From assembly GCA_026874595.1 (NCBI GenBank), contig CM049318.1:40652456-40716455 (forward strand): DNA of 64,000 bases, read 5' to 3'. Source of the DNA: Sipunculus nudus. Taxonomy: Eukaryota; Annelida; Sipuncula; Golfingiida; Sipunculidae. Below, in pieces: positions 9,801 to 58,143 of the stretch. Below the pieces are notes generated by a model. That model was not told the origin of the DNA. It did not search any database and saw only the letters and a program-made list of their open reading frames with translations. Numbering within the stretch: position 1 is the stretch's first letter; each line of letters begins with the position of its first letter. Made by a program: the position numbers and the translations under genes.

Positions 9801-12800
9801 CTCAGAGGAGTTCTCCGGAAACGAACGCCGCGGCCGGGGCGGAACCCGGTCAAAAACATAGTATCCGCAAAACTTCGTTTTGGTGGATACAATCAGCACA
9901 CAAGGCTAAATGTTTGTGGAACAGAAAAACAATAAATAATATACACTCCTTGTATTTATCACTAGAGAAACAAAACAAACAGCTTTATATGTACACAGAG
10001 TCTAACAATCATTAAGGGAAGAGATGAGAAATGTTGGAAGGATTCCAGTGATGACTTACAACATATAGGCCTTTGTCCAAGTTTGATTGTTGCTTTTTCT
10101 GTTGCTCTGTAAGACTAGTTTGGATGAGTGATAATAGGGGTTGTGATGATGCTGTATTACACACCTCCAATTCTGAAAGTTAATGAAAATAACAGGAATA
10201 GCTTTATTTGACATGACAAACACTGAAGCCTGGAATAAAGTGAAATGATAAGGTGCAAGTTACTTTAATAAAATATGCATGTCAATCAATAACCACGTTC
10301 TTTGACCTTAAATTAAGCATTTTTTTATTGACTTTTTAAACTTGTAGACACAATTGATTTACAAACTAATCGCCAATAGAAATAACCTGTCAAAGGAACA
10401 CAAAAAGTATTCAAGCATCCCAGTATGACTATCACTTATTTTCATTTCCCCTTAGCATATATAACACCCTAATATTAATGATACATGATCATCTGATTAA
10501 CTTGACCTCTTCCGATGGTCCCAATGTGGTCATGTTAGGTTTTCCTTGTACATTGTTTTTTGTTTGTTATTTTTTGATATTTCTATTTTATGAAATACAT
10601 CCTTGCCATATTGGTACAAATCACATACTGTAATTTCCCTTTCTTTTTAAAGATATTTTTTATCATTTACTAAATTTTGTAGGAGCAATTGTTTTGAATA
10701 ATATTCTGAATTTAAATCTGTACATGAAATGACACTTTTTCAGGGTTAAATGTATCTCTAAATGTATAATTTGTCAACCTATATGCAAGATCTTTGACTG
10801 GGGAATCTGCCCATTAACTGATGCAGAAGCATTTCTATTCCTTGCATCCTGAAGTTGCTGTGACCTCAGAAAAATTTACAGATTCTTACCTGTGGTGGAG
10901 TGTATTTTTTGCAGTACTGACAAAGATATGGGGATAGGTTTTTGTAGTCTGAGCACAAAACATGCTGGCAGTTGGTGGCTGTTCACATTGGTAACTGCTG
11001 AGAATGAGGGAAGCCTGTAAAAAAAAAACACAAAAAATATTGTCAATTCTTAGATTACTCCAGTACTATTCATCACATTGAGCTATAAATTCACACACAC
11101 TGAGGTCTTCATTGCACTAATAATACCACAAGTGCATTTATCTGCCGAACACCAACTAGCATTACAATAATAAATACACTTCTTGTATTCCTCATATGAT
11201 CTATTTTGCCAAAATTATTTTAAACATATTTTATTCCCATTACAATACAGAAATTCACATCTAAAACAAACGTAATTATTTTTACTACATGTGTAATATT
11301 CATGCTATAAAAAATTGTGTCATTTTGAATGATAAACTTTGTTGGTTTACCACTCCTCCAACTGAGAGGGATTTGTTTAAAGGTCTTCCCACCTGTCTCA
11401 CCAAGAATACAATCTGAACAATGTTGTTAAAACTTAATTGAAAACAAGGCCTACAGGCCTAATGTAAACCTGTGCAAAGTTTCGGAGTATGAATGGAGAT
11501 TAATTTTTAAAATTTAATATTGATCCTTTTAAGTCCTGCATATTTACCTTAGTCATTATGATTTCAGCAAAATGGACATTTCAGACCTGCAAATTCAGAC
11601 TAGGGCATGTTAAAACTAGAATATGGGTAGTCGACAAGCGACTATGTGTATCCACAGAAATCAAAGTGGGATGGGTGAAGTGAGGCATGGATAAAGTGGC
11701 AAGGGGAATATAGCGAGGTGTGTTGCATATTAGCATGGATGTCTGCAGCGTAAACGTGAATGTAGGTGGTGCCACCTGTCATAAAATCGAGAAAATTGCC
11801 CAGGATGTATAAACCTGCAAAATTTAAGGTGGATAAGTCAAAACACTGCTGAGATATGAGTGATTTTATCCCAAGGCAGATGAACAGATGGACGGTGTTC
11901 ATAAGTGGTTGCAGGTGGCACCACCAGTTTTGCTTATGATGAAGAGCTATGTGAGATCTATACACAAGCAAAATTTTGGCCCAATCAGTCATACGGTTCC
12001 CGAGATATGAGCTTGGATGTCTGCAGAGTAAATGTGAATATTGTTGGCACCACCTGTCATAAAATCGAGAAACCTGTCCAGGATGTATAAACCTGCAAAA
12101 TTTCAGGTGGATAAGTCAAACCACTTCTAAGATATGAGTGATTTTATCCCAAGGCAGATGAACAGATGGACGCTGTGCAAAAATGATTGCAGGTGGCGCC
12201 ACCAGTTTCGCTTATGATGAAGAGCTATGTGAGATCTATACACATGCAAAATTTTGGCCCCAATCGGTCAAACAGTTCCCGAGATATGAGCTTGGATGTC
12301 TGCAGAGTAAACCTGAATGTAGGTGGTGCCACCTGTCATAAAATCAAGAAAGCTGTCCAGGATGTATAAACCTGCAAAATTTCAGGTGGATAAGTCGAAC
12401 CACTGCTGAGATATGAGTGATAATATCCCAAGGCAGATGAACAGATAGACGCTGTGCATAAGTTGTTGCAGGTGGCCCCACCATTTTTAGTGTATGTTAT
12501 ATAGCTATCAAAGGGCTACATTTGTGCAAAATTTTTAGCCTGATCGGTCAAATGGTTCCCGAGATATGCAGGTTTATGTGTGAAAAACAGACGCACAAAT
12601 GGACACGGGCAGCAAGGAAAGGTCAGAGGTCAACCAAAAATGAGGGCGCAGCAGTTCACATGTGACCTGATGATTAAACCTGATTCGCTTAAAATGCAAA
12701 CCAAGTTTTTACAAACAGTTGAAAGATATAGTTCCAATAATCTGGGAATTCTGCATCTAAACATTGTGTCTAGACGTCTAGACGCTGTGTCTGGACGTCT

Positions 12801-21800: not shown

Positions 21801-24800
21801 ATTATAAAGGAATGTAATGTAATATGTGAGTAAATGATAAATGAAATAACCTGACTGATGGATTAATAGAGTCAAATATAGTGTTTTATTTTTTATTTAT
21901 TTAGGAGGGGTTGAAAATTGTGATATATTTGAGCAAATATGAATGCAATGACAGCAGTAATAAGCAGTAGTAGAATGATGATAAGGCTATTTGTTGAAGG
22001 ATCTAAAGTGTATGGTAGTCTGCAAGCTTTCAATTTGACAGATATGATGTTATGATTAACTATGCTGATGAAGTGATTTATGAATTTGTGACTGTATGAC
22101 ACAATATCTCTTAGTCTTGACAAGGTACATTATTGTGATGCCCACTATGTCTACATATTACACAATATTGACATAATTTCTGGCATGTACATAGGTACCT
22201 ATGGACGAATAGTTATACAAAATATTAAAGTATGAATATATCAAATTCATCTTGTTCTTGCTTACTGAGGCTGACTTTGGGATAGGGTTCGGAGAAGGGA
22301 AAAGTGAAGGCAGCACGAAGGTGGATGTAGAAATATTCTATTGTAATGTTTTTCATTTATATAAGAATATGAAACGCTAAGAGGAAAGGGGCCCTCCTAC
22401 TTGGTTATAGTAAAGTTCTAAATATATGATTGCAAACTAATACTCTGACAAGACTGTCATGAAGTAAAAAACAGTAAATGCAAGCTTTCAATTTGACAGA
22501 TATGATGTTATGATTAACTATGCTGATGAAGTGATTTATGAATTTGTGACTGTATGACACAATATCTCTTTAGTCTTGACAAGGTACATTATTGTGATGC
22601 CCACTATGTCTACATATTACACAATATTGACATAATTTCTGGCATGTACATAGGTACCTATGGACGAATAGTTATACAAAATATTAAAGTATGAATATAT
22701 CTGATTCATCTTGTTCTTGCTTACTGAGGCTGACTTTGGGATGGGGTTCGGAGAAGGGAAAAGTGAGGGCAGCATGAAGGTGGATGTAGAAATATTCTAT
22801 TGTAATGTTTTTCATTTATATAATGAATATGAAAAGCTAAAAGGAAAGGGGCCCTCCTACTTGGTTATAGTAAAGTTCTAAATATATGATTGCAAACTAA
22901 TACTCTGACAAGACTGTCATGAAGAAAAACAGTAAAAGTTTTGAGATACTGTAATGCATATGAAAATTTACAGAAGGACAGGCAAGTGGACAGAATGGAC
23001 TAATACCTTTATTTCACTTTCAAGGGAATAATGCATTTAAGTTTATATATAAGCCTTTTTTTTAAGCATATCCACTTTTTCCATTAAGAAGTTTTTATCT
23101 GAATCCTTTTTTTTATTTACAGGTTTTAATAAACAAGTGACCCATGGGTCATGACGCTCAGCTGCCAAGCATGACCTGTGACATCATGGACTGAGATTCA
23201 CAACTTCCAGTCAAATTTTGAAGAACCAATTTGTTGAAAATTTTCTATGACACCAGAAATATATATCACCTATGTCTGGTTAAAACACAGTGAATTGATG
23301 GTCTGAGGAAAATGCATGATTGTTAAGGTATCCAGAACTATTCCCATAGCTTACTTGATACCTGTCAGTCTCAAAAGGAACACCACAAAGGGCAAATATA
23401 AGATCAAAATATATAGCAAAAATCAAGGAAATACATGCAAGAAGTATTGAGAAACAGGTGTTTCTGTATGAATTTTTATTCAATACAAGCCAACTGTACT
23501 GCACTTTTATAAATGATGGTAATATTTATTCAGAAATATTTGACCCAATCCTTTACAAGATTACATAAATATACATCCAACTGCATTCACTTTAACTGTT
23601 CTTGAGATAATATGATCAAAAGGAATTAAAAGATGGTTGCCTGGTGGCCATATTGGACTTCTGACAAGTCTGAAATCAGACAACAAACATTCTCTAAATC
23701 GGACCAAAAATTGAAGGAAATTACTGAAACTGCACTGAAAAAAGGATTTCTAAGGTGGCTAACTGGCAGACATAATGGATTTCTGACAAGTCTGACATTT
23801 GATATCACACATCCTCCAATAAGAGACCAAACTTGGGGCAAATTCTCCAAATGATGTTACAGTAATGAATGTCCAAAACAATTCAAAAGGCGCTCATATC
23901 AGATTTACAGATATGCAAATGTAAAAGTGTAGGTCCAATATTTTTTATTATCACTCTGCTTTTCAATGGGGTCAGCAGGGTTGGTAAACTGCAAAACCTG
24001 AAAGAAAAGAAATGCAGAAAGCATGACTAAGAGTCTTGTAATAAAATAAAGCCATCCTAAATCAAGTACACATCCACATATTATGAGAACAAACACTTGC
24101 TTTTATATGTGGTGATTTATATAAAAATATTCAGATATCTAGGAAACTAAGTTTATTGCTATGATTCCATAAAATAAACTGCAAAATGTTCCCACCATCT
24201 TATAAATCAGTAGCTAAACCTTAATACTATACTCTCATAGTGTTAATTCCTGGATGAAGCATTCCATCAACAGTGTTTTGTTATGCAGTAACGAGGTACT
24301 TATCACTCAGCCTTATCACTTAATAGCCTGATACAAAAGGGAGTCATATGTCACCAGTGTCACTCACAATTACAGCCACACGGTGAGATGTACCAGCTGG
24401 AGGGCAAGCTTATATATACAAGAAAAATAGAGATGGACTACAAAATAAGTTGACCTGACCTATGACCTTGGCCTTTTGCCCACATATCAACTAGATTCTT
24501 TATAAATGATGGTAATATTTATTCAGAAATATTTGACCCAATCCTTTACAAGATTACATAAATATACATCCAACTGCATTCACTTTAACTGTTCTTGAGA
24601 TAATATGATCAAAAGGAATTAAAAGATGGTTGCCTGGTGGCCATATTGGACTTCTGACAAGTCTGAAATCAGACAACAAACATTCTCTAAATCGGACCAA
24701 ACATTAAAGAAAAATTACTGAAACTGCACTGAAGAAAGAATTTCTAAGGTGGCTAACTGGCAGACATAATGGATTTCTGACAAGTATGACATTTGATATC

Positions 24801-27800: not shown

Positions 27801-30800
27801 ATACTATATACGATCAAAACAGTTTTGTGGTTTTGATATTAGGCAGCCTTGAAGTGTAACAATGGCTTTTTTTTATGGAAAATGGAGTTTTTTTCCTTAA
27901 TATCTCGAAGGAACGAAGTCCTAATGACCCAATTTTCGGTATGGTAGGAGATTTTGGGGACATCTTAAATTATGCCAACAGCCTGGGAAGCTTAGAGATG
28001 TGCACTGTATGACCTACTGTCATCGAAGGGGACTGCTTGACAATGTAAGGATATACAACAAGAGCCTCCAAAAAAATTCAATAACTAGCCTAATTTTGCA
28101 GCTTTTATTTACAAATTTCAGATTTGAACAGATTAAATCCTTATGTATACATGCTGTGAAAATTAAATCCACAGTACTTACAGGAAAAAATTGTGCCGTG
28201 GCCAAAGTTGGGCAAAATTTAAGGTACCAATTTTATATTTTTGCCAATATTTAAAAAAATTTAACAGATTTTGATCTTATTTTTGGTATACAATTAAATT
28301 TTGATTAATTAAAGTTGTATTACCGGAAAAAAGTCCCTACCTTTATCACTTTTGGTCTTAAGTGACCAAATATCTTCCTGATTTTTTTAACTAAGTCCAT
28401 TATGTTTGGGCCCATAACTTTTTAAAATTATATAATACTGACTTAATATCTGGCAGGTACATAGGAACTATATAGAGGAACATTTATGGTAAATATGAAG
28501 AAAACCAGATGAGTGGTTTTGATATTAGGCAGTCCTGAAGTGTGAAAATAGATTTCTAATAAAAAATTGGGGTTTTTCCTTAATATCTCTAAGGAACGAA
28601 GTCCTATTGACCCAATTTTCGGCATGGTAGGAGATTTTGGGGACATCTAACTGTATGCCGAATTTCAGATTCGTAGGTCCAACGGTGTCAAAACGTGCCA
28701 GTCTTACGGATGGACATCCAGACGGACAGACGGACGGACAGACAGACGGACGGACGACGGTCAATGGACCACGACTATAGCTCAGATGACTTATAGTCAG
28801 CTGAGCTAAAAATATAGCAGCTGATTCTTTTAAATTACAGTTTCATACTAAGAGGCCAGTGTTAGTATACTTACTTATCACCCTGTATTTTATATACTGT
28901 GGCTAGTCCCTCCAAGTGTTGCTGAAACTCCTCAAAGTTCCCCTCACTTAGGGCTGTAACTAGTTCACTGCAGCTCTACAATCATAAATGGCATTAAGTT
29001 AATCCAACTTGCATTATTACATAAATGTATATAAACAATAGAATTATGGGTCAGTAAAGTTGTGTGCCTGCACATTCAACACAACAAATCTGTAAATTAA
29101 GGACTTACTACACTGTAATATCAAAGTTAAGTCTTTGAAATAGGATGGAGGCAGCCCATAAAGAATACAACTGGCATCCATCAGATACGAAATAATGAGA
29201 TCAAACTGGTACAGAAAGTGCAAAAAAACTTTATGCAACACAAAACAAGGTCCTATGCCCTCTAGCTTGGACTACTTATAACAAGGCCTACAGGCCTAAT
29301 GCGAACCTGTGCAATGAGATTACACCAGGTATAATGCTTCAATGCTGGACCATTACTTTTCAAGAACATGTGTAACATGTATATGAACAAACATCACTGC
29401 TGCAATTCTGTCATGGGTGCACACAACACAAAAGCTAGAATATGAGTAGTCAACAAGCGACTACGTGTATCCGCCAAAATCAGAGTAGGAAAGGTGAAGT
29501 GAGGCATGGATTGAGTGGCAAGGGGAAATAGAGTGAGATGTGTTGCATAATAGCCTTGATGTGTGCAGGCGAAATGTGTATGTAGGTTGTGCCACCTACC
29601 ACAAAATCCAGAAAGCTGTCCAAGATGTATAAACATGCAAAATTTTAGGCAGATAAGTCAAACCACTACTGAGATATGAGTGATTTTAGCCCACGGCAGA
29701 AAAACAGAGGGATGCTGTGCAAAAATGGTGGCAAGTGGCGCCACCAATTTTGTGTATGATTAAGAGCTATGTGAGATCTATACACATGCAAAATTTCAGG
29801 GGGATCTGTCAAACCAGTCCTGAGATATAAGCCAGATGGCTGCAGCTTATACATAAATGTAGGTGGCGCCACCTGCCATAAAAATCCAGAAAGCTTTCCA
29901 AGATGTATAAACATGCAAAATTTTAGGCAGATATGTCAAACCACTGCCGAGATATGAGTGATTTTATCCCACGGCAAACAAACAGCAGACGCTGTGCAAA
30001 AATAATTGCAGGTGGCACCACCAGTTTTGCGTATGATAAAGAGCTATGTGAGATCTATAAACATGCAAAATTTTTGCAAAATCAGTCAAATGGTTCCTGA
30101 GATATGAGCTTGGATGTCTGCAGCGTAAATTTGAATGTAGGTGGCGCCACCTGTCATAAAATCAAGAAAACTGTCAAGGATGTATAAACCTGCAAAATAT
30201 CAGGTGGAAAAGTCAAACCACTGTAGAGATATGAGTGATTTTATCCCACGGCAAACAACCAGATGGATGCTGTGCAAAAATGGTTGCAGGTGGCACCACC
30301 AGTTTTGCGTATGATAAAGAGCTATGGGAGATCTATACACATGCAAAATTTTGGCCCAACTGGTCAAACGGTTACCGAGATATGAGCTTGGATGTCTGCA
30401 GCTTAAACATGAATGTAGGTGGTGCCACCTGTCATAAAATCAAGAAAACTGTCAAGGATGTATACACATGCAAAATTTCAGGTGAATAAGTCCAACTAAT
30501 GCAGAGATATGAGTGTTTTTATCCCAAGGCAGATGAACAGATGGACGCTGTGCAAAAATGGTTGTAGGTGGCTCCACCATTTTTAGTGTATGTTATAAAG
30601 CTTTCCAAGCTACATTTGTGCAAAATCTTTAGCCTTATCGGTCAAACGGTTCCCGGGATATGTGGGTTTATGTGTGGAAACAGACGCACAAATGGATGCT
30701 GGGCAGAGAGGAAAGGTCAGAGGTCAACAAAAAATGAGGGCGCAGCAGTTCACATTTGACCGATCATAATTTCGAAATTTTAAAAAATTCTGCCCAGTGG

Positions 30801-33800
30801 TTATGGAGGAGTTCTCCGGAAACCTATGCAGCGATGTTTTGGCAAATACAATGATTGTAGCTTGCACCACCAGTCTTATATACAACGAAGAGATATATAC
30901 ATATGCCCAATGTCAGACTGATATGTCAAACCCCTCCTGTGAAATAAGCAGGCGCATACACTGCAAAAGTCAATGTAGGTGGCACCACCTGTCTTGTAAA
31001 TGAGAATACCATCAAAGATGCATAGACAGGTATCAGTCCAATACATCAAACTTCCCAAGAGTTTGATGCACTGGGCTGACAAGGCTTAGGTGAGTAAGGC
31101 AGTTGTCCCCGAGTGACCTGTGCCCTGTGACAAATTGCTGCCTCAAGCTACTGCACTGAGTGAACTCTTGACCTGCACCTGGCTAGACTGAGTGAACTTT
31201 TGACCTGTACCTGGCTGCACTGATGGAACTCTTGACCTGTTGCATAATCTGACACAGTTGGCCGTCTGCTAAAGCTATAAATAGATTCAGGCTGAACTTT
31301 GGTGCCAAATATGATGCAGTGAGCAGTCTGCCAAAGCTATCAATAGAATGCAGCTACTGCACTGAGTGAACTCTTGATCTATACCTGGCTGCACTTCTTC
31401 CAATCCTGGCACTGTGCCAAAACTATTTATAGAGCTGACATCATCTTGGCTAATGGCCAACATCAAGGCACTGGCAATCTGCCAATGGTAAACCAAGTGC
31501 TGCCATCTGTACACAAAAGTGGTCCCTACTTGAAATAACTTTGAAATTTATTTTCCCAATACAAAATGCTTTTCAGCTGACTTTTTATAAAAAAGAAATC
31601 AGGAATTTATGTAAAATTATTACAGATGCATACTGAATGCAAAATTAAAATACAGGTATATATCATTGATGGCAAATTCTTGAATTAAGTTGAGTAGGGA
31701 TACCAATAATTTATAATCCACGTACAGTTGTCTTTATATAGCCACAGAGAGCTGAATATCCATGATTGTAACATTGTCTGGTATGATGAATAACTTAAAT
31801 CATAAATCTAAATTTTTTTAAAGCTTTTAAAAAAACTTTCTTGTCAATATTAACCAAATATAACCTGAAATCTAAATGTCTAGTGGCATAATGTAATAGA
31901 TACTGATAAACTGGTGCCAAGCTAGATGTAACAGCATCACACAGCTAACATATATGGTAAAATGACTCAATTCAATCTCCATAATTCAGCCAAAAATCAT
32001 TCATGTGGAATCCATTAATGACAATAATTATAAGAATTATTGTAGGGATTATTCTTGTAAAATATTTAACAAATTGGCTTCAGTGGCATCAGTCGAAAAA
32101 CGTTTCACAAGTTTATAACTCATATAGGAAGATACAGCAAACTGGCCAAGTTCAGCTTCCCGTAAATCAGTCAAAAAGCACTGAACCAAAACCATTTGAA
32201 CAAACTTGAATTATCAACATCTGAGGATTATTAATGTGTGAGATTTAAGAATTTGGCCCAGTGGTTTTTGAGAAGAAGATCTTTGTAGCCACTGAGCTAA
32301 AATGGGCTGTTATGGCAAATGACTAAATTCAGCTTCCTGTAACTTAGCCAAAAGTCACTGAAAAGAGACCATTTAAACAAACTTCAGAAATCACTACCCT
32401 AGGATCATTTCTGTGTGATAATGACCCCATACAAAAAAGGCCGATGCAGGTGGCGCCACCAATACCTCAATTTCAGATATGACCTATGTGACCAACATTG
32501 GCATAAAATTTGGTGATGATAGCTCCAGCCGTTTCTGAGATTTAAATTTTAATATGCTTTTTTGCACAGTTAACAAAGTTCAACCTCCTGTAACTCGGCC
32601 AAAAATCGCCAAACTGGAACCATTCGAACAAACTTGAGGAAGATTGTTCCAGGGATCATTTCTGTGAAATATTGGACAATTTGGCTGGAAAGTTTCGGAG
32701 AAGAAGATTTTTAAAGCTTTTTTAGCTTTTTCCCTATAAAATCTATGGAAATGCAGTTAGAAAAAAAAATAAACAAAATCCAATATAGTTTTTTGGATGA
32801 CTGAATATTTGCAAAAAATTTGGTGATGCTAGCTCCTGCCGTTTTTGAGATAGCTATGGTTAACGTACAGATGACGCACGACACACGACGGACGATGCCG
32901 CACCATCGCATAAGCTCACAGGTTCGCTAATAACTGTCAATGAGAGCAATCTGAATTGCTCAAAAATCTTATTTCATGTATTTGTTTTATGTATCTTTTA
33001 CTGAAGAGGTTAGATGGATATACACCCATCACTACATCTCAGGACACCTGAAATGTTCTAAGGACACCTCACATGAGCTAAAAACATAAGAAATATGATG
33101 AACTTACAACAGGGTCTCCATGGTGAGCGATGCGGACATCCTTGACCATTCCAGTGTTGTGCAGCTGTATTTCCAGCCAGAACATGTCCCCTATGATCTT
33201 ATAGGTGTCCGCAGTACATGGGCTGAACTTAAGTCCAACTCTTTTAGATACAGTCTCCAAACAGTCAACCATTAATGGTAAACTTGTGACTGAAAACAAA
33301 ATTTGTTAACATTTATATTCATGGTAAAACCTTGAAATCAGTTATTAATGGAACAGAGTCTCCTTTCCTGCATTACTTCAAAAGTGATGGTTACAGAAAT
33401 CCACAGATTTGACCTTACAGATAAAGTTCAAGGTAACTAGTAAACTCTTTGTTTTTTTTTTAAACTCTCTGAGCACTTAAATGAAACACTGGTGTTTCAA
33501 ATTTGAGAAAAATATATGCAGTACCTAAAACATTACAGGGTTCACAAATTATGAAGATTTGACATAGAGAATGAAAGTCAAGGTCACCAGTTTTGAATTT
33601 TATAATAATGTTACAGTCATTTACTTGTAATTGATAACTACATGTACAACATACAGAATTATATATTGTAAACCTCACAAGAAGCTTTAGAATTAAATAC
33701 AGATGACAATATTATATTAAACAGTAAATTTGATTTACTTTGATCATATTTTCTCATAATAAGATCTGATTCAAGGACTCTCTTTTCCTGAAATGTCAAA

Positions 33801-34053: not shown

Positions 34054-37000
34054 AATTCATTGCATAAGCAATACAATAACCAATGTTTTACTGTCTACTC
34101 ACCTTTGACAGTCTTTTGCAGTGTTTCTAACTGTTTCTGTATGAGCACACGATCACATGGTTCTAAGTGCAGTCTTTTATCCTGAAATCACAAAAAAAGT
34201 TTTCACATCAGACAGTGAACCTGTAATATATGTGTAAAGATGGAAAGATTGCATATAAAACTGTATGTAAATTGATGAATATTACAAATGAAGCTGAAAC
34301 TTATGAGTAACAAATATTGCATATATCATTCTATTCCAATGACTGCATGGCGCTAGAGACAAGGAACATGAAGAAGTCAAAATAAGTTAGGTATTTGTGT
34401 GGACTACAGAATACACACTTAGCTTCATTCATGAATAATCATAATACAGTGCTGCCATCTACAGTGAACCAGTTTAACTAAAGTACCAATATGTACTCAC
34501 TGCACTTCATGTCCTGGTGAGCAGTGAGGCGAAGCTGATAACTACACAATCATGTTTATAACAAAATAAACCTGTTATTACATCTCTGTATACAAGGAGT
34601 GCAGTCTGGGAGTTGCTGGATCATGGTGTTTTGTTCATCTCTGTCATATATGAATGGTAAACTTTTCCGGTTCCTTAAAAGGATATCCCTGATCATTAAA
34701 TATGGACATTGTTCTCCACATTCAAGTCTATCTTTCAGTGGAAAAACAATGGTAATAACAATTACAGGGAATCTGTACTACAGATGACAATAAAATCAAA
34801 TACTTAGTTTTTCTTATTAAATTACACCAATAATTTTCCACAAATAATCAACAGAGTTTATGGCAATTTAATCTAAGTAAGATGCCTATTAATTTTTTTT
34901 TAAAATTTCGAAGTTCAATAGCTTTGAATTTTGTACAAAAAATGGGGAACCATAAGTTTTTTTCACACAAGTTATATAATAACCTCATATTACCAAGTAT
35001 ACTAGCCCTGGATTAACCTAAAATTATCTGGATATATAATATGTGTTGATTTTGTCAAAGACCCTTCAGTTCATAAATTACATCATTACTGTGAATCATA
35101 CAAGCCTGGATTATAAACCAGTCCAGATGTAACTGGATTTAGGAATGTAAAACAACATAAAAATAGCTATACAGGCAAACCACTGGTGTTCTGTAATACA
35201 TACAACAGCAGTGTTGGGCTGATTATAATTTTTAATCAATGATTGGTCAGTCGGTGCAAATATGATTTGATCAACCATCTTGCAGTGCCATAATCAATTA
35301 CAAAGTTATGTACATAACTTGGGCACTGTGATGAGGAAATATATACTTTCATTTAATTCATGCAAGCAAATTCTAGAAAAGTCTGTGTTTATTAACAGCT
35401 TGATAATTTATGTTATGACACATCTTGCATGTCAAATTTAACATCCCCTACCCTGACAAGGAAAAAATCTTTTTTGCATATCAGTATTTACCAATAGACA
35501 TTTCTTTCCAGAAAATAAAATAATAAGATTTTCTGAAAAAGTACCTAACATATGGACCTTGAAGATGTAGAATCCGTGAAAGTTAGTTTGCTAAAACTGC
35601 CTTTTTCACACAATAACTGAGTACGAACTGCAATATATCAGACCTTTTGCCATCAGACCTGAGAGGCTGACCTTAGGACACCTGGGTCACCCCTACCCCC
35701 TTGCTGGATACACTGACCACACCCACCACCTAACTTAATTATCCAAACAACAGCACCAGTATATGACGCCTGTATATAAATCATTGTTCACAGCATGCTG
35801 CTACAGTTTATTTTTGCCACAATATACACAATAAGCCAAACAAAGCCAACTGTGTACCATACCCAACAATAGAATTTTTATAGCTCATTCTGGTAGAATT
35901 TACTCATCCAGTTTATGAAACAGTATATTCTGAAAGTCAGGCAGAGTTCACAATCCATCCATACAAGTAATGTATGATTTCTAATTTAATCATATTTCAT
36001 CATGCTACAAGCCACAATAATATCCTGTACCAATACTGTTTGTTGTTAAAAAAAACATTATATAAATAAATAAGTGTGAATGTTGCAGTCCTTAATGAAT
36101 ATGAATTATTAATTTACCAATATATGTAATGGCCATTGATATACACCAATACAATATCCATTTTACTTTACTCCTGATGCATGTAATCCTAGGAATAATA
36201 TAGAATATTGATTTCAAAGAAAATTATACAGTTGTCAAACATGACATAATCCTAGACTCAGTGAGTCATGAACCTCTAAAAAGCTCTAATGAAAACACAG
36301 ATACATTACATGGTCCTACATTTCAATAGCTTACAAATAAATACTGTGGTTGGCTTAATATTCACGGTGGTTTAAAATTCGCTATATTTGCGGTCGGGGC
36401 AATACCGTGAAATTAGAACCACCCAGATTTAAACCCTTGCTGTCATGGGAAAATAGTTTCTGCGCGGCACTTCAGGGATGGCCCCTTCCGTGACCAACTT
36501 GTAATATCCATGGAATGAAGTTTCATTAACGAAATCCGAACTTGATATGATCAAGGTAATGTGTAGGGCCCTTTTTATTTTGATATGTAATGGCCAAGCT
36601 ATGAAACCAGTGCCTTTTTGAAGCAGCATCGCCAGGTCCCGGCAGTGACGGTCGTTGTAATTTGAGCAAAACATGAGCATCAATTTTTACTCATTCCAAG
36701 TTAAAATACCCTCAACATAGTGAGCTTGTTCAAACAAAATGGGGCCAGTTTTCCTGTGATGACAAATACAGTTTCTTGACCAAAGCATCATTATTTATCA
36801 CACCTGCACATGATGGGTGAACTGTGGGGAGGGCCTTCTGGTAATTAACTCTGACCCGAGCCGAGAAATCCCCATTAACTAGCTTACCAAAAACAGTCAT
36901 GGGCCGTGAGCGTGGATAAAGAGGCGATAAGCAGATACTTATAATTTTGTGTAATAGAGAATTGATAACTATTTTGTCGTTTATATTAAATTATTACTAT

Positions 37001-40000: not shown

Positions 40001-43000
40001 GCAGGTATCATTCTGGTTTCATTCTAGACTAGTTAACTAGGCCAATGCCTCATTCCTTTGTTACAAACTGATGACTATTCTTTGGAACTGTTGAGACACT
40101 TTATGTAAATATGACAAAATTTCAATGAGCAACTCCATGTGGGACAAAGTTGATTCATACAAGTTAATCACATCAGGGATCCATTTTATTTTAACAATTA
40201 TCTAAAATTCATTTACAGTCAACTAAAAAGGCTTAATACATTTCAATTATTATCAAATTTATTGTTTGCAATTAATAAATAATAACATGTTAATAACCAA
40301 GGTACAATGATAATATATGCATGTAGGCTAATACCTTGATATGGAATAAAATTTATGTTGCCAAGTGCAAAGATTGCATTTATGAAAAGGGTTATTCCTA
40401 TAAAGGCTATAATAGTTCCCATCTCTTGACACAAATTATTTTCAGTCGTAAGTCATACAATTTTCTAAACACTAAAATCTACATATTTATACCTCTTTTC
40501 TTTTAATATATCAACAATATTTAATATAACATCTCAATTCATCTCACCATGGGAAAATTCTAACAATTGTACACACACAACTGCTAATGATATGAGTATT
40601 GTCATCTGTTAATGCCTGCATTACAAGCTAGGTGGAACACAGTATCAAGTGAAAGGAAGACATACACTTTGTAAAGCTGTATAACCTAAAAGTTTGAGAT
40701 GGCCTCATATATATAACTGCCTGTTTCTCAAACACAGGAAACCTGTAAATGTGCATCACATGCACAAGATTAAACACCAGTCAAAATTTAATAAATCAGC
40801 AGAATTCTTATGTAAACATTTTTCACAGACTGGCTAACATATCAGACTCTGGTCTCACACCTTTTGGTTATACACAAAGTGAAACCACTCCATTAAAGTT
40901 ACCTCTTTACATTAATATGGACACCTGTGTCATAAGATTGGAAGTACACTTAGATGAAAATCAATTCTCTAATATTGGATCTTCCACATCATGAGCAAAA
41001 ACTAAGTTCATGCCAGTGTCCCTATTTGAAAGACCACAGTATAAAACAAACAAAGGCAGAATGGACAGCCGGGAGCATTTTAGTAGTCGTCACTTCCTAC
41101 AGCAGGGAACTAAAAATTTAAATATCTTGCTGACTGCATGTGGTGATGTCAGGTGATGTAAAATGCATGTAATGAAGTGTAAAAATAGGTTTTCAATGGG
41201 GGAAAATGAAGAATTTCCTTAAATTCTCAAAGGAACAAAGTTGCAATGTCCCAATTTTGGGTTTGTTAGAACTAAGCGACATATAACTGTATGTCAAATT
41301 TTGGATTCATAAATCTAATGGTTTCAAAATGTGCCAATCTAACTAATGGACCATAACAATATGCTTATTTCTGAGGAAATAAACAACCCTGATATAAAGA
41401 GCAGATATCTGGAGGTCTTTGAAACCTTACTGTATTTTAATGTGACACTATAGTGACTTACTGTTGCAGATATTCGAAGGGCTTTGAAACCTTACTGTAT
41501 TTTAATGTGACGCTGTGGTGATCAACTGCTGCAGATATTTGGAGGTCTTTGAAACCTTACTGTATTTTAATGTGACACTATAGTGACTAACTGTTGCAGA
41601 TATTCAAAGGTCTTGAAGCCTCACTGTATTTTAATGCGCACCGTGGTACCAACTAATGCAGATATTCTGAGGTTTTTTAAACCTTGCTGTATTTTAATGT
41701 GACGCTGTGGTGACTTACTGTTGCAGATATTCGAAGGGCTTTGAAACCTTACTGTATTTTAATGTAACGCTGTGGTGATCAACTGTTGCAGATATTTGGA
41801 GGTCTTTGAAACCTTACTGTATTTTAATGTGACACTATAGTGACTAACTGTTGCAGATATTCGAAGGTCTTTGAAGCCTCACTGTATTTTAATGTGACGC
41901 TGTGGTGACCAACTGTTGCAGATATTTGGAGGTCTTTGAAACCTTACTGTATTTTAATATGATGCTGTGGTGACTTACTGTTGCAGATATTCGGAGGGCT
42001 TTAGTGGTGTCTGTCCATGATTTATGCTGTGATGACCGGAGCCTGAGCCGGTCCATTAAGTTGTGGAGTTTCACCTTTTGCTCACCCTCCCCTTCTTCCT
42101 CCATCTCTGTAAAGACAAAGCAATGAAATAAATACAAAACTGGCAGTCAATGATAAATATTTAAAATTAAGGTTGGTTTGCAATCAAAAATTCTATTTTA
42201 TATTATCTGCCAAGGCTTGGAGATCAATTACTGATTGAATTTAGCCGAAGCATCAAGGGAAATGATAATACCGCTCATACATGCTACAATCTATCAATAC
42301 AATATTGATATTTTCATGACAAAAGAGCATGTACTATCAATTAAATTAACTGCCCTTGGCACCCATATATGTTCTTAGTAAATGTAGAAGATACACCAGG
42401 TTGTCTCCAAGGCTTAATATATTCAACGTTACCCATCAATTATTAAGTGAATTAAATATATCAAATATATTGTACAAAAAATCTGAGTAACAAACAAATA
42501 TTGTTTGGTAATTCAAGATAATTTGAGAGATCTGATTACATTTTAAAATATCAATCTCTGAACATTATCTATTTTTGATTTTATTCATAATATCATCCTT
42601 TTACTTTTCAACTTTCTCTTCGACAATGGGGCATCAGACCTCTTTTTCAAGAAGGTTTTATTTTTGCAATAATTCCCCTTTCCAAAGATCACAAATTTGA
42701 AACCCTCACAACAAAAAGGCAACTACACTATATCATCACACAGCTTGGTGCTAAGCTGAACAACTTCACAAGGTATTCGTAGGACCACTGAGGGAAACAA
42801 TGTGTACTTAATATTATCGCTGCCATCTAACCCTGTGAACTATATGTGTGATAATAAATGTAGTAGAAAAAATTTATTATTAAATTGAATCAAACAAATG
42901 TGTTTAAATACACACAAATATACTAAACAGTAAATCAGTTTTACTACAAACTAGGTGATGTTTCAAAGAGGGACGATTTAAATTTTCTAAGTGTTAACTG

Positions 43001-46000
43001 AAAACAAATTGTAAAACAAAAAGATAATATAACAATCACTACATAAAAAATTCAAAGGCCGAGGCCAATAGAATATACACCTGCCATGGTGCTAATTAGA
43101 AGGAAGGCAAGGTAGGATGCACTAGCTACATTTGGAAACAGGCAAGGAGCCAGGAAATCTGAACATATGGTGTAAGGTTGGCCCCAATTAAGACCAAGAG
43201 GTAGGGGTATCATGAGGAGTGATAAGCGAGAGATATCCACACTCTGACAAGGTGGGCGTGGCTCTGGGAAGCAAAGAAAGGATGACTTAGTGTGGGAGAT
43301 CTTAGTCTGCTTTTGAATTGTTGAATTATTAGTGACAATGTAATTTCAGTTAAAGTTACATGCATTACACAGTGGAATACTGGACAGGCTGTGGGGGAGA
43401 TCTTCGTGTGCTTTTGAATTGTTGAATTATTAGTGACAAGGTAATTTCAGTTCAAGTTACATGTATAACACAGTGGAATACAGGACAGGCTGTGGGAGAT
43501 CTAAAGTCTCTTTTTGATTTGTTGAATTATTTGTGACCAGCTAATTTCAGTTTAAGTTACATGCATTACACAGTGGAATACTAAACAGGCTGTGGTAGAT
43601 CTTAGTATGCTTTTGAATTTTTGAATTATTAGTGAAAAGGTAATTTCAGTTAAAGTTACATGCATTACACAGTGGAATACTGGACAGGCTGTGGGGGAGA
43701 TCTTCGTGTGCTTTTGAATTGTTGAATTATTAGTGACAAGGTAATTTCAGTTAAAGTTACATGTATAACACAGTGGAATACAGGACAGGCTGTGGGAGAT
43801 CTAAGTCTCTTTTTGATTTGTTGAATTATTTGTGACCAGCTAATTTCAGTTTAAGTTACATGCATTACACAGTGGAATACTAAACAGGCTGTGGTAGATC
43901 TTAGTATGCTTTTGAATTTTTGAATTATTAGTGAAAAGGTAATTTCAGTTAAAGTTACAGGCTTTACACAGTGGAATACTGGACAGGCTGCTGGCAAATA
44001 TTTCCCTAATTACACTGCAGATAGTGAAATATTGCCAAATTATGCATATTTGTCTATAAGATGATTTGTTTGAATACATGTGTCCTCAGACACAAAATCA
44101 AACAAAAGATTATATTACCTATGTTATCTAGATAGCAAAATATTGACAAAACCATTATTACCATGTTTTACCATTCAGTAAATACCCATGTCCTAACTTA
44201 TGCACTGGAGTGCTGGTTTACAAATATATCTGATAAGTTAAAGAAACAGCTAAATAATACCAGGAAGAGAAGTTGTAGAATAACTAGTACTTCTCTTGCC
44301 ACACACCAGGAAATCTGTGAAACCAAATCAATGGCCTTCATATCTGAGGTCATGAACAACACAATACATCAACTACATTCAGAATTCAGTTTTTTACCTT
44401 CTGGTTAACACTTAGATGCAACTTCCTGCAGAACAACTCGCTTTAAAAAAAAATCTCTTGTACCATACAGTATTAAACTTTAACTCACAACCCTCTCAAT
44501 ATTTAATGTTTTGAATTATGGGTTTACCTGCAGAATTATGTTTTATCATTTTTACATGCTTGTTTTTACATGCATAGTCAAATACGTTCTGTGTTATTTT
44601 TATGTATTTATTTATTCATTTTTACGTAATGAATTGCAAATCAATAAAAAATCCTGGAACTGAATGTTACCTGATCTTAATATCTAATCAACTCCTTAAC
44701 TGATTTTATCTTCAAATAATATTTTACAATTTATTGGAAAAGAATATACAAATGAATGTACTATTTTTTGTTGGCCTGTAATCCATTTTTTGCTGTCTCC
44801 ATTGACAAGATATGTAATTTCGCAGAACCTAATTGGAAAATTCTGCCCAACCAGAGTACCAGCATAATACGGACCCATTTACAACTGTAATGCTAATGAT
44901 ACACCTAATTATACTTAATATTCCTGTGCATGCCCAAGCTGCCTGCATCAGTCTGACATGCAAATGAACCTGAATCAAAGTATAGACAACCATCAGACAA
45001 CAATGTATTCAGAATGACTTCACTCATTTAAAATCTCTTCATGACTGTGTTCATGAGTGTAGGTAAGGAAGCTGGAACAAGACATGTCAATAGAGACAAA
45101 CTGTAGGACATGGCTATGTCACGTGGCTTTAAATGGACACAGCTGTATGTCCATGATGGTGCAGGATTAAAGTGTTATTAATCTAATAAATGATTAAATG
45201 CATTAAAACTGATTCTCTTATTATTACAAAACTGGATTTCAACAATACCAGGCAAGAGCACTATAATAATGAAGTAATACAGATTTTATCCAAATTTCAG
45301 AACTCCTGAGGCTTTTGTTCAGAGACTCAGAGTTCAAACACAAACATTCAAATTAAATGTTAACAGTCACATAAAAATACTATCCAAGCTTCCATGACCA
45401 TCCTAAACCTGGTAAAGAGTAACAAACTGTGATAGTTTATGCAATGGACAAATTTAATAATAATCTCCATCATGGCTAAATATCTCTACCCGATTTTATA
45501 TGGCAAAATATGCAACCCATAAGGAATGTTCTGAAATCCAGAGGTGACACTTTTATGTTGACATTTTTGTTCCATGCAATAAAAAGATAAGTATGTTTAT
45601 TTGTTGCTCTTTATTTACAATGTTATTTTCTCCTGGAATTCTCCAGCTTTTGTCCTCTCTGATTCATCCTGCTACTTCCAGTTATTTCCGACTAATCCCA
45701 AAGTCTGTAAGCATATGGTTCCACCCACATGCAGGTATTCAAATACATGTGGTTTTATAAAAGTAAATGTGATTCTTGAAAATAAATTTATTTTGAACAT
45801 AGACTCTAATGCTGCCAGTTTTCCCATAAAATACACTTCAAGGGCTTTTTTGTGAACCAAAACCATGGACAAAAATGCATATCATGATACCATGATAATA
45901 GGAAAGTTGATGGTCTGATTACCGTTGCTGTCTGATATCATGAAAATACTGTATGCTGGTAACCATCCCAACCCTACTGGTAACTGTTCACAATCGAATA

Positions 46001-50293: not shown

Positions 50294-51392
50294 GTATCCG
50301 CCAAAACAGAGTTTTGCGGATACTATGTTTTCAGCCCACCGCCGCCGCCGCGTAGGTGTCCGGAGAACTCCTCCGTAACCGCTGGGTGAAATTTTACGAA
50401 ACCCGGGATTATGTTCGGGTCACATGTGAACTGCTGCGCCCCGATTTTGTTTTGACCTCTGACCTTTCCTCTGCGTCCATCTGTGCATCTGTTTCCACAC
50501 ATAAACCCACAAATCTCGGGAACCGTTTGACCGATCAGGAAAACAAAATGTACAAATGTAGCCCATGGATAGCTTTATAACATACACAAAAAATGGTGGC
50601 GCCACCTGCAACCATGTTTGCACAGTGTCCATCTGTTCATCTGCCTTGGGTTAAAATCACTCATATCTCTGCAGTGGTTTGACTAATTCACCTGAAATTC
50701 GGCATGCGTATACATCCTGGATAGCTTTCTTGATTTTATGACAGGTGGCGCCACCTACATTTACGTTCAAGCTGCAGACATCCATGCTTATATCTCCGGA
50801 CTGGTTTGACGTATCTTCCTGAAAATTTGCATGTGGATAGATCGCACATAGCTCTTTATCATACGCCAAACTGGTGGCGCCACCTGCAACCATTTTTGCA
50901 CAGCGTCCGTCTGTTTGTCCGCTTTTGGATAAAATCACTCATATCTCGGCGATAGTTTGACATATCTGCCTAAAAATTTGCAGGTTTATACATCCTGGAC
51001 AGCTTTCTTGATTTTCATGACAGGTGGCGCCACCTACATTCTAGTTTACGCTGCAGACATCCAAGCTCATATCTCGGGAACCGTTTGACCGATTTGGCCA
51101 AAATTTTGCATGTGTATAGATCTCACATAACTCTTGATCATTCACAAAACTGGAGGGACCACCTGCAACCATTTTTGCACAGCATCCGTCTGTTTGTCTG
51201 CCGGGGGCTAAAATCACTCATATCTCAGTAGTGGTTTGACTTATCTGCCTAAAATTATGCATGTTTATACATCTTGGATAGCTTTCTCGATTTTTTGGCA
51301 GGTGGCGCCACCTACATACACATTTCGGCTGCAGACATCCATGCTAATATGCAACATACCTCACTCTATTTCCCCATTGCCACTCAATCTGT
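50294..51392. mobile_element. G-family repeat, copy 4 (inverted)
   Basis: Opposite orientation to copies 1-3. It begins with hairpin GTATCCGCCAAAAC / GTTTTGCGGATAC (50294-50323), runs through units with GGTGGCGCCACC at 50595, 50743, 50873, 51022 and 51300, and stops at GCCACTCAATC. It thus lacks the CTAG hairpin end. Confidence 0.65.
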
Positions 51393-52404: not shown

Positions 52405-55400
52405 TGTGCATGGGCGCTCTATCATTGGAATGTAACAAGGGAGGAAAATGGTTTCCATTATTATTATTTAATATACTCATTAAGTAATCGGCATATCGTG
52501 TGTTTGACGTCGTGTTTCAATTATGAAATTATAATGCACCTTTACTTTGTCATGTAGCAGCTATATAATTATAATGCAATTTTCCTTTGTCATCTTCCAA
52601 TTATGAAATTGTAATGCACCTTTACTTTGTCATTTACAATTATGAAATTATAATGCACCTTCCCTTTGTCATGCTAAAGTTATGAAATTATATTACACCT
52701 TTCCTCTGTCATCTTACAATTATGAAATTATAATGCACCTTTACTTTGTTATCTTACAATTATGAAATTATAATGCGCCTTTACTTTGGCATCTTACAGT
52801 TATGAAATTATAATGCGCCTTTCCTTTTCATCTTACAATTATGAAATTATAATTGTGCATGGGCGCTCTATCATTGGAATGTAACAAGGGAGGAAAATGG
52901 TTTCCATTGTTATTATTTATATATCTACTCATTAAGTAATCGGCATATCGTGTGTTTGACGTCGTGTTTCAATTATGAAATTATAATGCACCTTTAGTTT
53001 GTCATGTAGCAGCTATATAATTATAATGCAATTTTCCTTTGTCATGATACAATTATAAAATTATAATGCGCCTTTCCTTTGTCATGTTACAATTATGAAA
53101 TTATATTGCACCTTTACTTTGTCATCTTACAGTTATGAAATTACAATGCATGCACCTTTACTTTTTCATCATACAATTATGAAATTATATTGCACCTTTA
53201 CTTTGTCATGTTACAATTATGAAATTATATTGCACCTTTCCTTTGTCATCTTAGAATGATGAAATTGTAATGCACCTTTACTTTGTCAACTTACAGTTAT
53301 GAAATTACAATGCATGCACCTTTACTTTTTCATCATACAATTATGAAATTATATTGCACCTTTACTTTGTCATGTTACAATTATGAAATTATATTGCACC
53401 TTTCCTTTGTCATCTTAGAATGATGAAATTGTAATGCACCTTCACTTTGTCAACTTACAGTTATGAAATTACAATGCATGCACCTTTACTTTTTCATCAT
53501 ACAATTATGAAATTATATTGCACCTTTACTTTTCATCTTACAATTATGAAATTATAATTGTGCATGGGCGCTCTATCATTGGAATGTAACAAGGGAGGAA
53601 AATGGTTTCCATTGTTATTATTTATATATCTACTCATTAAGTAATCGGCATATCGTGTGTTTGACGTCGTGTTTCAATTATGAAATTATAATGCACCTTT
53701 AGTTTGTCATGTAGCAGCTATATAATTATAATGCAATTTTCCTTTGTCATGATACAATTATAAAATTATAATGCGCCTTTCCTTTGTCATGTTACAATTA
53801 TGAAATTATATTGCACCTTTACTTTGTCATCTTACAGTTATGAAATTACAATGCATGCACCTTTACTTTTTCATCATACAATTATGAAATTATATTGCAC
53901 CTTTACTTTGTCATGTTACAATTATGAAATTATATTGCACCTTTCCTTTGTCATCCTAGAATGATGAAATTGTAATGCACCTTCACTTTGTCAACTTACA
54001 GTTATGAAATTACAATGCATGCACCTTTACTTTTTCATCATACAATTATGAAATTATATTGCACCTTTACTTTGTCATGTTACAATTATGAAATTATATT
54101 GCACCTTTACTTTGTCATCTTACAATGATGAAATTGTATTGCACCTTTACTTTGTCATCATACAATTATGAAATTATATTGCACCTTTACTTTGTCATGT
54201 TACATTTATGAAATTATATTGCACCTTTCCTTTGTCATCTTCCAATGATGTAATTGTAACGCACCTTTACTTTGTCATCTTACAATAATGAAATTATAAT
54301 GCGCCTTTACTTTGGCATCTTACAGTTATGAAATTATAATGTGCCTTTCCTTTTCATCTAGCAATTATGAAAATATATTGCACCTTTACTTTGTCATGTT
54401 ACATTTATGAAATTATATTACACATTTCCTTTGTCATCTTAAAATTATGAAATTATAATGCACCTATACTTTGTCATCTTACAATGATGACATTGTAATG
54501 CACCTTTACTTTGTCATCTTACAGTTATGAAATTATAATGCACCTTTCCTTTGTCATCTTACAATTATGAAATTATAATGCACCTTTCCTTTGTCATCTT
54601 ACAATTATAAAATTATAATGCGCCTTTACTTTGTCATCTTACAATTATGAAATTATAATGCGCCTTTACTTTGGCATTTTACAGTTATGAAATTATAATA
54701 GACCTTTCCTTTTCATCTTACAATTATGAAATTATAATGCACATTTCCTTTGTCATCTTACAATTATGAAATTATATTGCACCTTTCCTTTGTCATCTTA
54801 GAATGATGAAATTGTAATGCACCTTTACTTTGTCATCTTACAGTTATGAAATTACAATGCATGCACCTTTACTTTTTCATCATACAATTATGAAATTATA
54901 ATGCGCCTTTACTTTGTCATGTTACATTTATGAAATTATATTGCACCTTTCCTTTGTCATCTTACAATGATGTAATTGTAACGCACCTTTACTTTGTCAA
55001 CTTACAGTTATGAAATTATAATGCACCTTTACTTTGTCATCTTACAATTATGAAATTATAATGCGCCTTTACTTTGGCATCTTACAGTTATGAAATTATA
55101 ATGCGCCTTTCCTTTTCATCTTGCAATTATGAAATTATAATGCACATTTCCTTTGTCATCTTACAATTATGAAATTATATTGCACCTTTCCTTTGTCATC
55201 TTAGAATGATGAAATTGTAATGCACCTTTACTTTGTCATCTTACAGTTATGGAATTACAATGCATGCACCTTTACTTTTTCATCATACAATTATGAAATT
55301 ATATTGCACCTTTACTTTGTCATCTTAGAATGATGAAATTATAATGCGCCTTTACTTTGTCATCTTACAGTTATGAAATTACAATGCATGCACCTTTACT

Positions 55401-57600
55401 TTTTCATCATACAATTATGAAATTATATTGCACCTTTACTTTGTCATGTTACATTTATGAAATTATATTGCACCTTTCCTTTGTCATCTTACAATGATGT
55501 AATTGTAACGCACCTTTACTTTGTCAACTTACAGTTATGAAATTATAATGCACCTTTACTTTGTCATCTTACAATTATGAAATTATAATGCGCCTTTTCT
55601 TTGGCATTTTACAGTTATGAAATTATAATCCACCTTTCCTTTTCATCTTACAATCATGAAATTATAATGCACATTTCCTTTGTCATGTTACAATTATGAA
55701 ATTATATTGCACCTTTCCTTTGTCATCTTAGAATGATGAAATTGTAATGCACCTTTACTTTGTCATCTTACAGTTATGAAATTACAATGCATGCACCTTT
55801 ACTTTTTCATCATACAATTATGAAATTATATTGCACCTTTACTTTGTCATGTTACATTTATGAAATTATATTGCACCTTTCCTTTGTCATCTTACAATGA
55901 TGTAATTGTAACGCACCTTTACTTTGTCAACTTACAGTTATGAAATTATAATGCACATTTCCTTTGTCATCTTACAATTATGAAATTATAATGCACATTT
56001 CCTTTGTCATCTTACAATTATGAAATTATATTGCACCTTTCCTTTGTCATCTTAGAATGATGAAATTGTAATGCACCTTTACTTTGTCATCTTACAGTTA
56101 TGAAATTACAATGCATGGACCTTTACTTTTTCATCATACAATTATGAAATTATATTGCACCTTTACTTTGTCATGTTACATTTATGAAATTATATTGCAC
56201 CTTTCCTTTGTCATCTTACAATGATGTAATTGTAACGCACCTTTACTTTGTCAACTTACAGTTATGAAATTATAATGCACCTTTACTTTGTCATCTTACA
56301 ATTATGAAATTATAATGCGCCTTTACTTTGTCATCTTACAGTTATGAAATTACAATGCATGCACCTTTACTTTTTCATCATACAATTATGAAATTATATT
56401 GCACCTTTACTTTGTCATGTTACATTTATGAAATTATATTGCACCTTTCCTTTGTCATCTTACAATGATGTAATTGTAACGCACCTTTACTTTGTCAACT
56501 TACAGTTATGAAATTATAATGCACCTTTACTTTGTCATCTTACAATTATGAAATTATAATGCACCTTTACTTTGTCAACTTACAGTTATGAATTACAATG
56601 CATGCACCTTTACTTTTTCATCATACAATTATGAAATTATATTGCACCTTTACTTTGTCATGTTACATTTATGAAATTATATTGCACCTTTCCTTTGTCA
56701 TCTTACAATGATGTAATTGTAACGCACCTTTACTTTGTCAACTTACAGTTATGAAATTATAATGCACCTTTACTTTGTCATCTTACAATTATGAAATTAT
56801 AATGCGCCTTTACTTTGGCATTTTACAGTTATGAAATTATAATCCACCTTTCCTTTTCATCTTACAATTATGAAATTATAATGCACATTTCCTTTGTCAT
56901 CTTACAATTATGAAATTATATTGCACCTTTCCTTTGTCATCTTAGAATGATGAAATTGTAATGCACCTTTACTTTGTCATCTTACAGTTATGAAATTACA
57001 ATGCATGCACCTTTACTTTTTCATCATACAATTAAGAAATTATATTGCACCTTTACTTTGTCATGTTACATTTATGAAATTATATTGCACCTTTACTTTG
57101 GCATCTTACAGTTATGAAATTATAATGCACCTTTCCTTTTCATCTTGCAATTATGAAATTATATTGCACCTTTACTTTGTCATGTTACATTTATGAAATT
57201 ATAATGCACCTTTTCTTTGTCATCTTACAATTATGAAATTAAAATGCACCTTTACTTTGTCATCTTACAATGATGAAATTGTAATGCACCTTTACTTTGT
57301 CATCTTACAGTTATGAAACTATAATTCACCTTTCCTTTGTCATCTTACAATTATGAAATTATAATGCACCTTTCCTTTGTCATCTTACAGTTATAAAATT
57401 ATAATGCGCCTTTACTTTGTCATCTTACAATTATGAAATTGTAGTGCACCTTTACTTTGTCATTTACAATTATGAAATTATAATGCACCTTTCCTTTGTC
57501 ATGCTAAAGTTATGAAATTATAATGAACCTTTCCTTTGTCATCTAACAATTATGAAATTATAATGCACCTTTACTTTGTCATCTTACAATTATGAAATTA
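52405..57600. repeat. Satellite of 40-bp units, about 5.1 kb
   Basis: The unit is roughly GCACCTTTACTTTGTCATCT then TACAATTATGAAATTATAAT, about 40 bp, repeated on the order of 125 times with variants (GCATGCACC, CAGTTATG, CATTTATG). ATTATGAAATTATAAT is partly self-complementary. A non-satellite block starting GTGCATGGGCGCTCTATCAT occurs at about 52407, 52855 and 53563, so larger blocks were duplicated too. No coding function. Confidence 0.92.
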
Positions 57601-58143
57601 TTTTTTTAGTAATTTAGATAGAAGCTCAATGAATCTGTTTGGCTCGTAGTTTAGTACTAATTTCATAACAGATATTAAATACAGAGTGACACTACAGAAA
57701 AATTGAATGCAATATGGTAGTAATGAATCAAATTTATTACTAAATGAAAACATACCTTTTGACGAAATTTAAAGGGTAATAAAACGTCTCATTGATAATA
57801 AAGCTCCTGGGTTGGGCGGTGTACCAAATGAAGCTTTCAAAAGAAAGCATGCAGTTTATAAAATATTTACATAAAATATTTGATTTTTGTTATAGTAAAG
57901 GTTTTCTGCCTTCGGTTTGGACAAAAGCTATTATTGCCCCGGTACTTAAAGCTGATAAAGATCCTTATAATGCCCCACTGAGTTACACAGGGATATCATA
58001 TATAGTCTCCTGTCTTGTATTAAAGTTTACAGTGGCGTCAATTTTTCTTCCAGGGTTGGGGGGATGACTTAGTATTTTTATTTATACACACACACACACA
58101 CACATATACCCTTTTTTCAGCGTCTCCGAGTGACATATTCAAC

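Follow-up and report, generated by a model that had tools for sequence, protein, structure and literature searches.

A 65-bp tandem array was found to span the boundary between exon 2 and intron 2 of a MED1 gene, carried on the minus strand of the 64-kb stretch of DNA analysed here (the window). The splice donor of exon 2 lies in the first unit of the array, and two downstream units contain exact copies of it. We consider it probable, at roughly 70%, that the array is a mirage-type minisatellite that arose by tandem duplication from exon 2 into intron 2 with later reduplication of an A-B-C-D block of units, that the first donor is the one mostly used, and that the array is a tolerated by-product.

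The MED1 gene is of the animal type. In a tblastn search of the window with a human MED1 query, 10 of the 20 rows were collinear on the minus strand between 42098 and 3744 (E values of 0.33 and 0.75 for the two weakest); the other 10 rows, with E values of 0.44 or worse, were discarded as noise. Exon 3 was missed by tblastn, and was located by a scan based on the sequence and intron phase that an exon there should have, and then read directly. Joined exons 2, 3, and 4 matched human MED1 in the PDB with an E value of 8.3e-20 and the Pfam Med1 family (PF10744) with an E value of 2.6e-9 (37.2 bits, cut-off 25), placing the sequence in MED1 both by profile and by comparison with the human protein. 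The exon that carries the start of the array is a real MED1 exon. Its coding part, from the ATG to the donor, occupies positions 41979..42104 of the minus strand (42 codons, phase 0). The acceptor, ...TCTTTACAG, lies directly upstream of this coding part, with the start codon directly 3' of it; an exon 1 presumably lies further upstream. The last base of exon 2 is 41979, and the donor GT begins at 41978. Exon 3 (34103..34181, minus strand) reads GATAAAAGA...GTCAAAG and is followed by GTGAGT; it starts in phase 0 and ends in phase 1. Exon 4 (33108..33289, minus strand) is followed by the donor GTAAGT, the first G of which is at 33107. When the donor at the end of exon 2 was joined to exon 3, the resulting protein fitted human MED1.

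Tandem Repeats Finder (TRF) placed the array at 41401..42002 with a period of 65 and 9.3 copies, and gave 130 and 257 as alternative periods. Read on the minus strand, the array consists of nine units and a closing 20-base partial unit, and is organized as a four-unit higher-order repeat of ca. 257 bp. In unit 1, the 24 bases that close exon 2 (41979..42002, minus strand, coding KALRISAT) are followed by the 41 bases that open intron 2. A nhmmer profile was built exclusively from intron sequence, using eight units counted from the donor. This profile recovered nine units and, as a tenth match, the 24 exonic bases at 42002–41979 (E value of 0.00043). The proposal made in the initial annotation that the last 24 coding bases of exon 2, together with the GTAAGT donor, form the start of the array is thus confirmed by both TRF and the intron-only profile. 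Its span of 41395–42106 does contain the array, but also takes in a part of exon 2 that is not repeated. The 65-bp periodicity holds for most steps: the donor-like sites at the head of the downstream units (first sites) lie 65, 130, 195, 260, 325, 387, 452, and 517 bp from the true donor, one step being 62 bp, as one unit is 62 rather than 65 bp long. No further match to the unit profile exceeded the inclusion threshold in the 64 kb, the next best having an E value of 0.02; an origin of the unit from a mobile element or from a dispersed repeat was rejected on this basis.

The units fall into four types, in the order A B C D A B C D A. Averaged over pairs, identity between units was 0.923 at lag 4 (n=5), compared to 0.835 at lag 1 (n=8), 0.866 at lag 2 (n=7), and 0.826 at lag 3 (n=6). 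The mean identity at lags 4 and 8 was reached by 45 of 20000 random unit orders. Identity at lag 6 was likewise high (0.918, n=3), and the four-mer is therefore not perfectly regular; the high value is due in part to unit 9, in which A-type sequence ends at the donor and gives way to C-like sequence. Units 5 and 9 share with exon 2 all but one of the 24 exonic bases (23/24), and the single difference is synonymous. Because of this higher-order pattern, the perfect donors found downstream are best read as exon-derived copies of the A unit. An independent origin of the GTAAGT sites in units 5 and 9 was rejected, since both are A-type copies in the four-unit repeat. Tandem arrays are prone to mis-assembly, which could make the repeat number an artefact, but the units differ from each other, carry private differences, and follow an ordered four-type pattern, which leaves such an artefact extremely improbable.

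The true donor of exon 2 (41973..41978, minus strand) reads ACA/GTAAGT and has no G at position −1. It is identical from −3 to +8 to the decoy donors GTAAGT of the A-type units 5 (41713..41718, minus strand) and 9 (41456..41461, minus strand). Two perfect downstream copies had been correctly noticed in the initial annotation, but at wrong positions: their GTs are at 41718 and 41461, and not at 41723 and 41466. The eight downstream first sites comprise two each of GTAAGT, GTTAGT, GTTGGT, and GTTGAT, the GTTAGT sites being in units 3 and 7, in agreement with the two occurrences noted before. Every unit had also been said to contain a second site, AAATACAGTAAGG. This does not hold, as the second site is GTAAGG in six of the nine units, GTGAGG in two, and GCAAGG, which has no GT, in one. 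In unit 1, the second donor-like site, GTAAGG (41942..41947, minus strand), lies 31 bp into the intron, and its use would cause a frameshift. Splice signals are hence present in many but not all units: with the true donor included, GTAAGT occupies the first site of 3/9 units, and a GT is present at the second site of 8/9.

The strength of the donors was evaluated using an approximate frequency table, and the scores obtained with it are crude. The true donor scored 3.37 and units 5 and 9 scored the same. Scores ranged from −0.91 to −7.8 for the other six first sites, and from 1.31 to 2.0 for the eight GT-containing second sites. The predicted duplex with U1 was −5.6 kcal/mol for the true donor and, again, for units 5 and 9. 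A ladder of "near-identical" donors, as the array had been described, is not what is observed: six of the eight downstream first sites are of the GTT type, with crude-table scores far below that of the true donor. On the same table, six other MED1 donors scored 8.04, 4.11, 7.93, 8.73, 4.13, and 2.51, making the donor of exon 2 the second weakest among the seven scored, a set that left out the exons near 10885, 6066, and 4376. The donors of exon 4 (33107, GTT/GTAAGT) and exon 5 (28874, TAA/GTAAGT) also have no G at −1; counting that of exon 2, three of the seven scored MED1 donors depend mainly on GTAAGT. The array contains 41 GTs besides that of the true donor. By the frequency table, 2/41 of these were at least as strong as the true donor, a larger share than elsewhere in intron 2 (9/429), whereas by U1 pairing the same 2/41 was a smaller share than in the rest of the intron (41/429). 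Apart from units 5 and 9, no array GT reached the score of the true donor.

Reading on past the true donor gives 29 codons and then a stop, exactly as previously stated. The prediction that decoys would truncate MED1 was also supported: joined to exon 3, all of the 16 GT decoy sites tested gave a premature stop, at codon 54 for the +31 site, at codon 70 for the +65 site, and at codon 72 for the other 14 sites. Transcripts with such early stops would be expected to undergo nonsense-mediated decay. Leakage to the decoys should not be called negligible, given that the true donor ranks second weakest among the seven scored and is matched by those of units 5 and 9.

MED1 is a core transcription cofactor, and a real effect on its level, if true, would matter. 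Tuning of MED1 dosage by the array, as suggested in the initial annotation, is possible but unsupported, and actual use of the decoys is likewise unsupported. We regard as very unlikely the explanation in which the array is a dosage element, with decoys diverting a meaningful, length-dependent share of MED1 transcripts to decay and the copy number setting the level. Marginally less probable still is a donor ladder of variable copy number that diverts MED1 pre-mRNA into early-stop transcripts in a proportion set by its length and serves in the lineage as a dial on Mediator dosage. The uniform early stops and the identity of units 5 and 9 to the true donor over −3 to +8 speak for a dosage element, but besides these two units no GT of the array is as strong as the true donor, and GTs at the level of the true donor are present in the rest of intron 2 by either measure. 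The human ABCA7 gene, where a variable number of tandem repeats (VNTR) occupies intron 18, points both ways in the part of the report concerned with splicing: lower expression and more exon 19 skipping do accompany longer repeats, but usage of the donor that lies one unit further on is 2 ± 1%, independently of repeat length (PMC5954066). Lancelet "mirages", tandem repeats that span or overlap exon–intron boundaries, are likewise reported, in the passages on splicing, not to disturb regular splicing, though the authors note that the duplicated signals might be recognized as cryptic sites (PMC3087553, PMC3902484).

In the mirage-type reading, which we prefer, a tandem duplication would have copied a 65-bp stretch that starts 24 bases before the end of exon 2 and reaches into intron 2. 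The copies would then have diverged into types A-B-C-D, and the four-mer would have been duplicated again; the return of GTAAGT only at units 5 and 9 would follow from this second duplication. This order of events is suggested by the pattern of unit identities, which is itself directly observed, as are the array and the fact that it overlaps the exon. The spliceosome most likely picks the first donor, which lies at the real exon end beside the acceptor of the exon; units 5 and 9 and the +31 site would receive a low level of leakage at most. Any such transcripts would contain an early stop, and nonsense-mediated decay would presumably eliminate them. The array would probably have arisen as a by-product of the usual turnover of tandem repeats in a gene rich in them, and would be tolerated and not selected.

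The direction of duplication can be judged from the 24 shared bases. Human MED1 aligns through W-T-D-T-T-K-A-L-R, with KALR opposite human KLVR, beside the conserved W-S/T-E/D-T. Clear homology ends at KALR, and the following ISAT aligns to the human protein with a one-residue gap. Judging by this alignment, the first half of the 24 shared bases (12 bases, KALR) resembles ancestral coding sequence, while the last 12 bases of exon 2 could be array-derived. The exon-to-intron direction is favoured because KALR, inside the shared 24 bases, aligns with human MED1. An opposite course, in which the array came first, is unlikely: an intronic minisatellite would have grown up to or across an old boundary, its donor would have replaced the original one, and the last exon codons would be repeat-derived. 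The weakening of human homology directly after KALR is consistent with such a course, but the placement of KALR within the shared bases, next to the conserved W-S/T-E/D-T, argues against it, as does the finding that no other copy of the unit exceeded the profile inclusion threshold in the window.

A further possibility, to which we give similarly little weight, is that the exon bases preceding the array are an eleventh, diverged unit, and that the whole array, its intronic part included, descends from exon sequence. This possibility was raised by a 12/13 match, 62 bp apart, between the exon sequence GTCATCACAGCAT and GTCACCACAGCAT of unit 1. The match was chosen after looking. An in-register match of this quality was reached by 1/3000 shuffles and 7/3000 window pieces, and under strict local scoring two schemes gave values of 0.006–0.010, but a looser local scheme gave 0.024–0.043 and two global schemes 0.03–0.09. 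Local alignment using the whole 104-bp upstream exon gave no signal, its score being reached by 947/2000 shuffles and 1473/2000 window pieces. Moreover, the residues encoded by the exon stretch can be aligned with human MED1. The match is a weak lead to a possible additional ancient unit within the exon.

The array lies in a repeat-rich gene. Seven arrays of at least 100 bp make up 4065 of the 38369 bases of the MED1 gene span (10.6%). When all seven were placed at random, at least one of 21 boundaries fell inside an array in 0.70 of trials; a single 602-bp array covered one of the 21 in 0.165 of trials. Some of the boundaries used in this test were approximate block ends, and coding constraint was ignored. 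Special placement at a splice site was rejected on these rates, and an array over one boundary is, given them, unremarkable in a repeat-rich gene. Matches elsewhere in the window at an E value of 1e-3 were obtained for a single one of the 21 boundaries, the exon 2 donor, and all eight of these matches lie within 2 kb.

Several other repeats were observed in the window, which has a GC content of 35.4% and a CpG observed/expected ratio of 0.42. An array at 43291–43990, ca. 1.2 kb upstream of exon 2, has a 99-bp unit in 7 copies and shows higher-order periodicity at 300 bp (97% matches), a two-level build like that of the intron 2 array. A 5-kb array at 52518–57601 has a 40-bp unit in ca. 125 copies (81% matches). 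Four arrays, at 8578–9690, 11727–12487, 29580–30592, and 50581–51350, have 278–280 bp units whose consensus contains a GGTGGCGCCACCTG-like motif; three of the four lie within the MED1 gene span, and the consensus of the array at 50581–51350 reads in the opposite orientation. Two minus-strand open reading frames in a MED1 intron, 21893–22129 and 22405–22569, have the peptide RDIVSYSHKFINHFISIVNHNIISVKLKAC in common, which points to local duplication. No structured RNA or tRNA was detected in the window, there being no Rfam match at gathering scores and no ARAGORN hit.

Among the matches listed in open-licence literature, there was no earlier report of the MED1 boundary array. Its layout is already known in kind from lancelet genes and human ABCA7. 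In the lancelet reports, as far as their sections on individual genes go, mirages are described in Adh3, the globins BflGb6 and BflGb9, TnC, and PGBD5, with units of 10–72 bp in Adh3 and 150–160 bp in BflGb6, where units are 81–100% identical; length instability is reported for mirage clusters, and a model of intron gain is built on them (PMC3087553, PMC3902484). Like these, the MED1 array is a minisatellite-like tandem duplication in which a unit crosses a genuine exon–intron boundary (24 exonic and 41 intronic bases of unit 1) and splice signals are copied. The genes are different, and nothing observed in the window marks the host as a lancelet. The MED1 array copies the donor side, whereas in some of the lancelet mirages described the acceptor side is duplicated.

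In the passages of the ABCA7 report that describe the repeat, the VNTR has a 25 bp unit whose first two bases are the exon 18 donor, and retention of one unit leads to a frameshift and an early stop (PMC5954066), as predicted for the MED1 decoys. Both arrays include the splice donor, with the true donor in the first unit and further donors at unit steps, but the ABCA7 repeat begins at the GT, while the MED1 array begins 24 bases inside the exon. The ABCA7 VNTR is also polymorphic, at about 12 to 427 units (PMC5954066), whereas the MED1 array is known from one sequence. Variable internal tandem repeats in human segmental-duplication genes are, like the MED1 array, minisatellites at exon–intron boundaries, and are described in the relevant passages as able to alter splicing (PMC2812944). 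These were found as paralog differences with transcript evidence, and the lancelet papers, in the parts concerned, cite splicing evidence for their mirages (Adh3 data, globin RT-PCR), while the MED1 array was read from sequence alone. In the potato RdRp gene, according to the account of that case, an intron was gained through a duplication that, as in MED1, crosses an exon–intron boundary and doubles splice signals (PMC4974935); at MED1, there is no sign of a new exon or intron. Intronic minisatellites are also known from earthworm metallothionein, where boundary duplication is absent from the passages describing them (PMC12783039). Set beside these systems, the MED1 array is a further clean example of an exon–intron boundary copied into an intron, and its three donors, identical over 11 bases, offer a natural test of how the spliceosome chooses the right donor. 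If the host is not a lancelet, boundary minisatellites of the kind described in lancelet genes would extend to another animal lineage.
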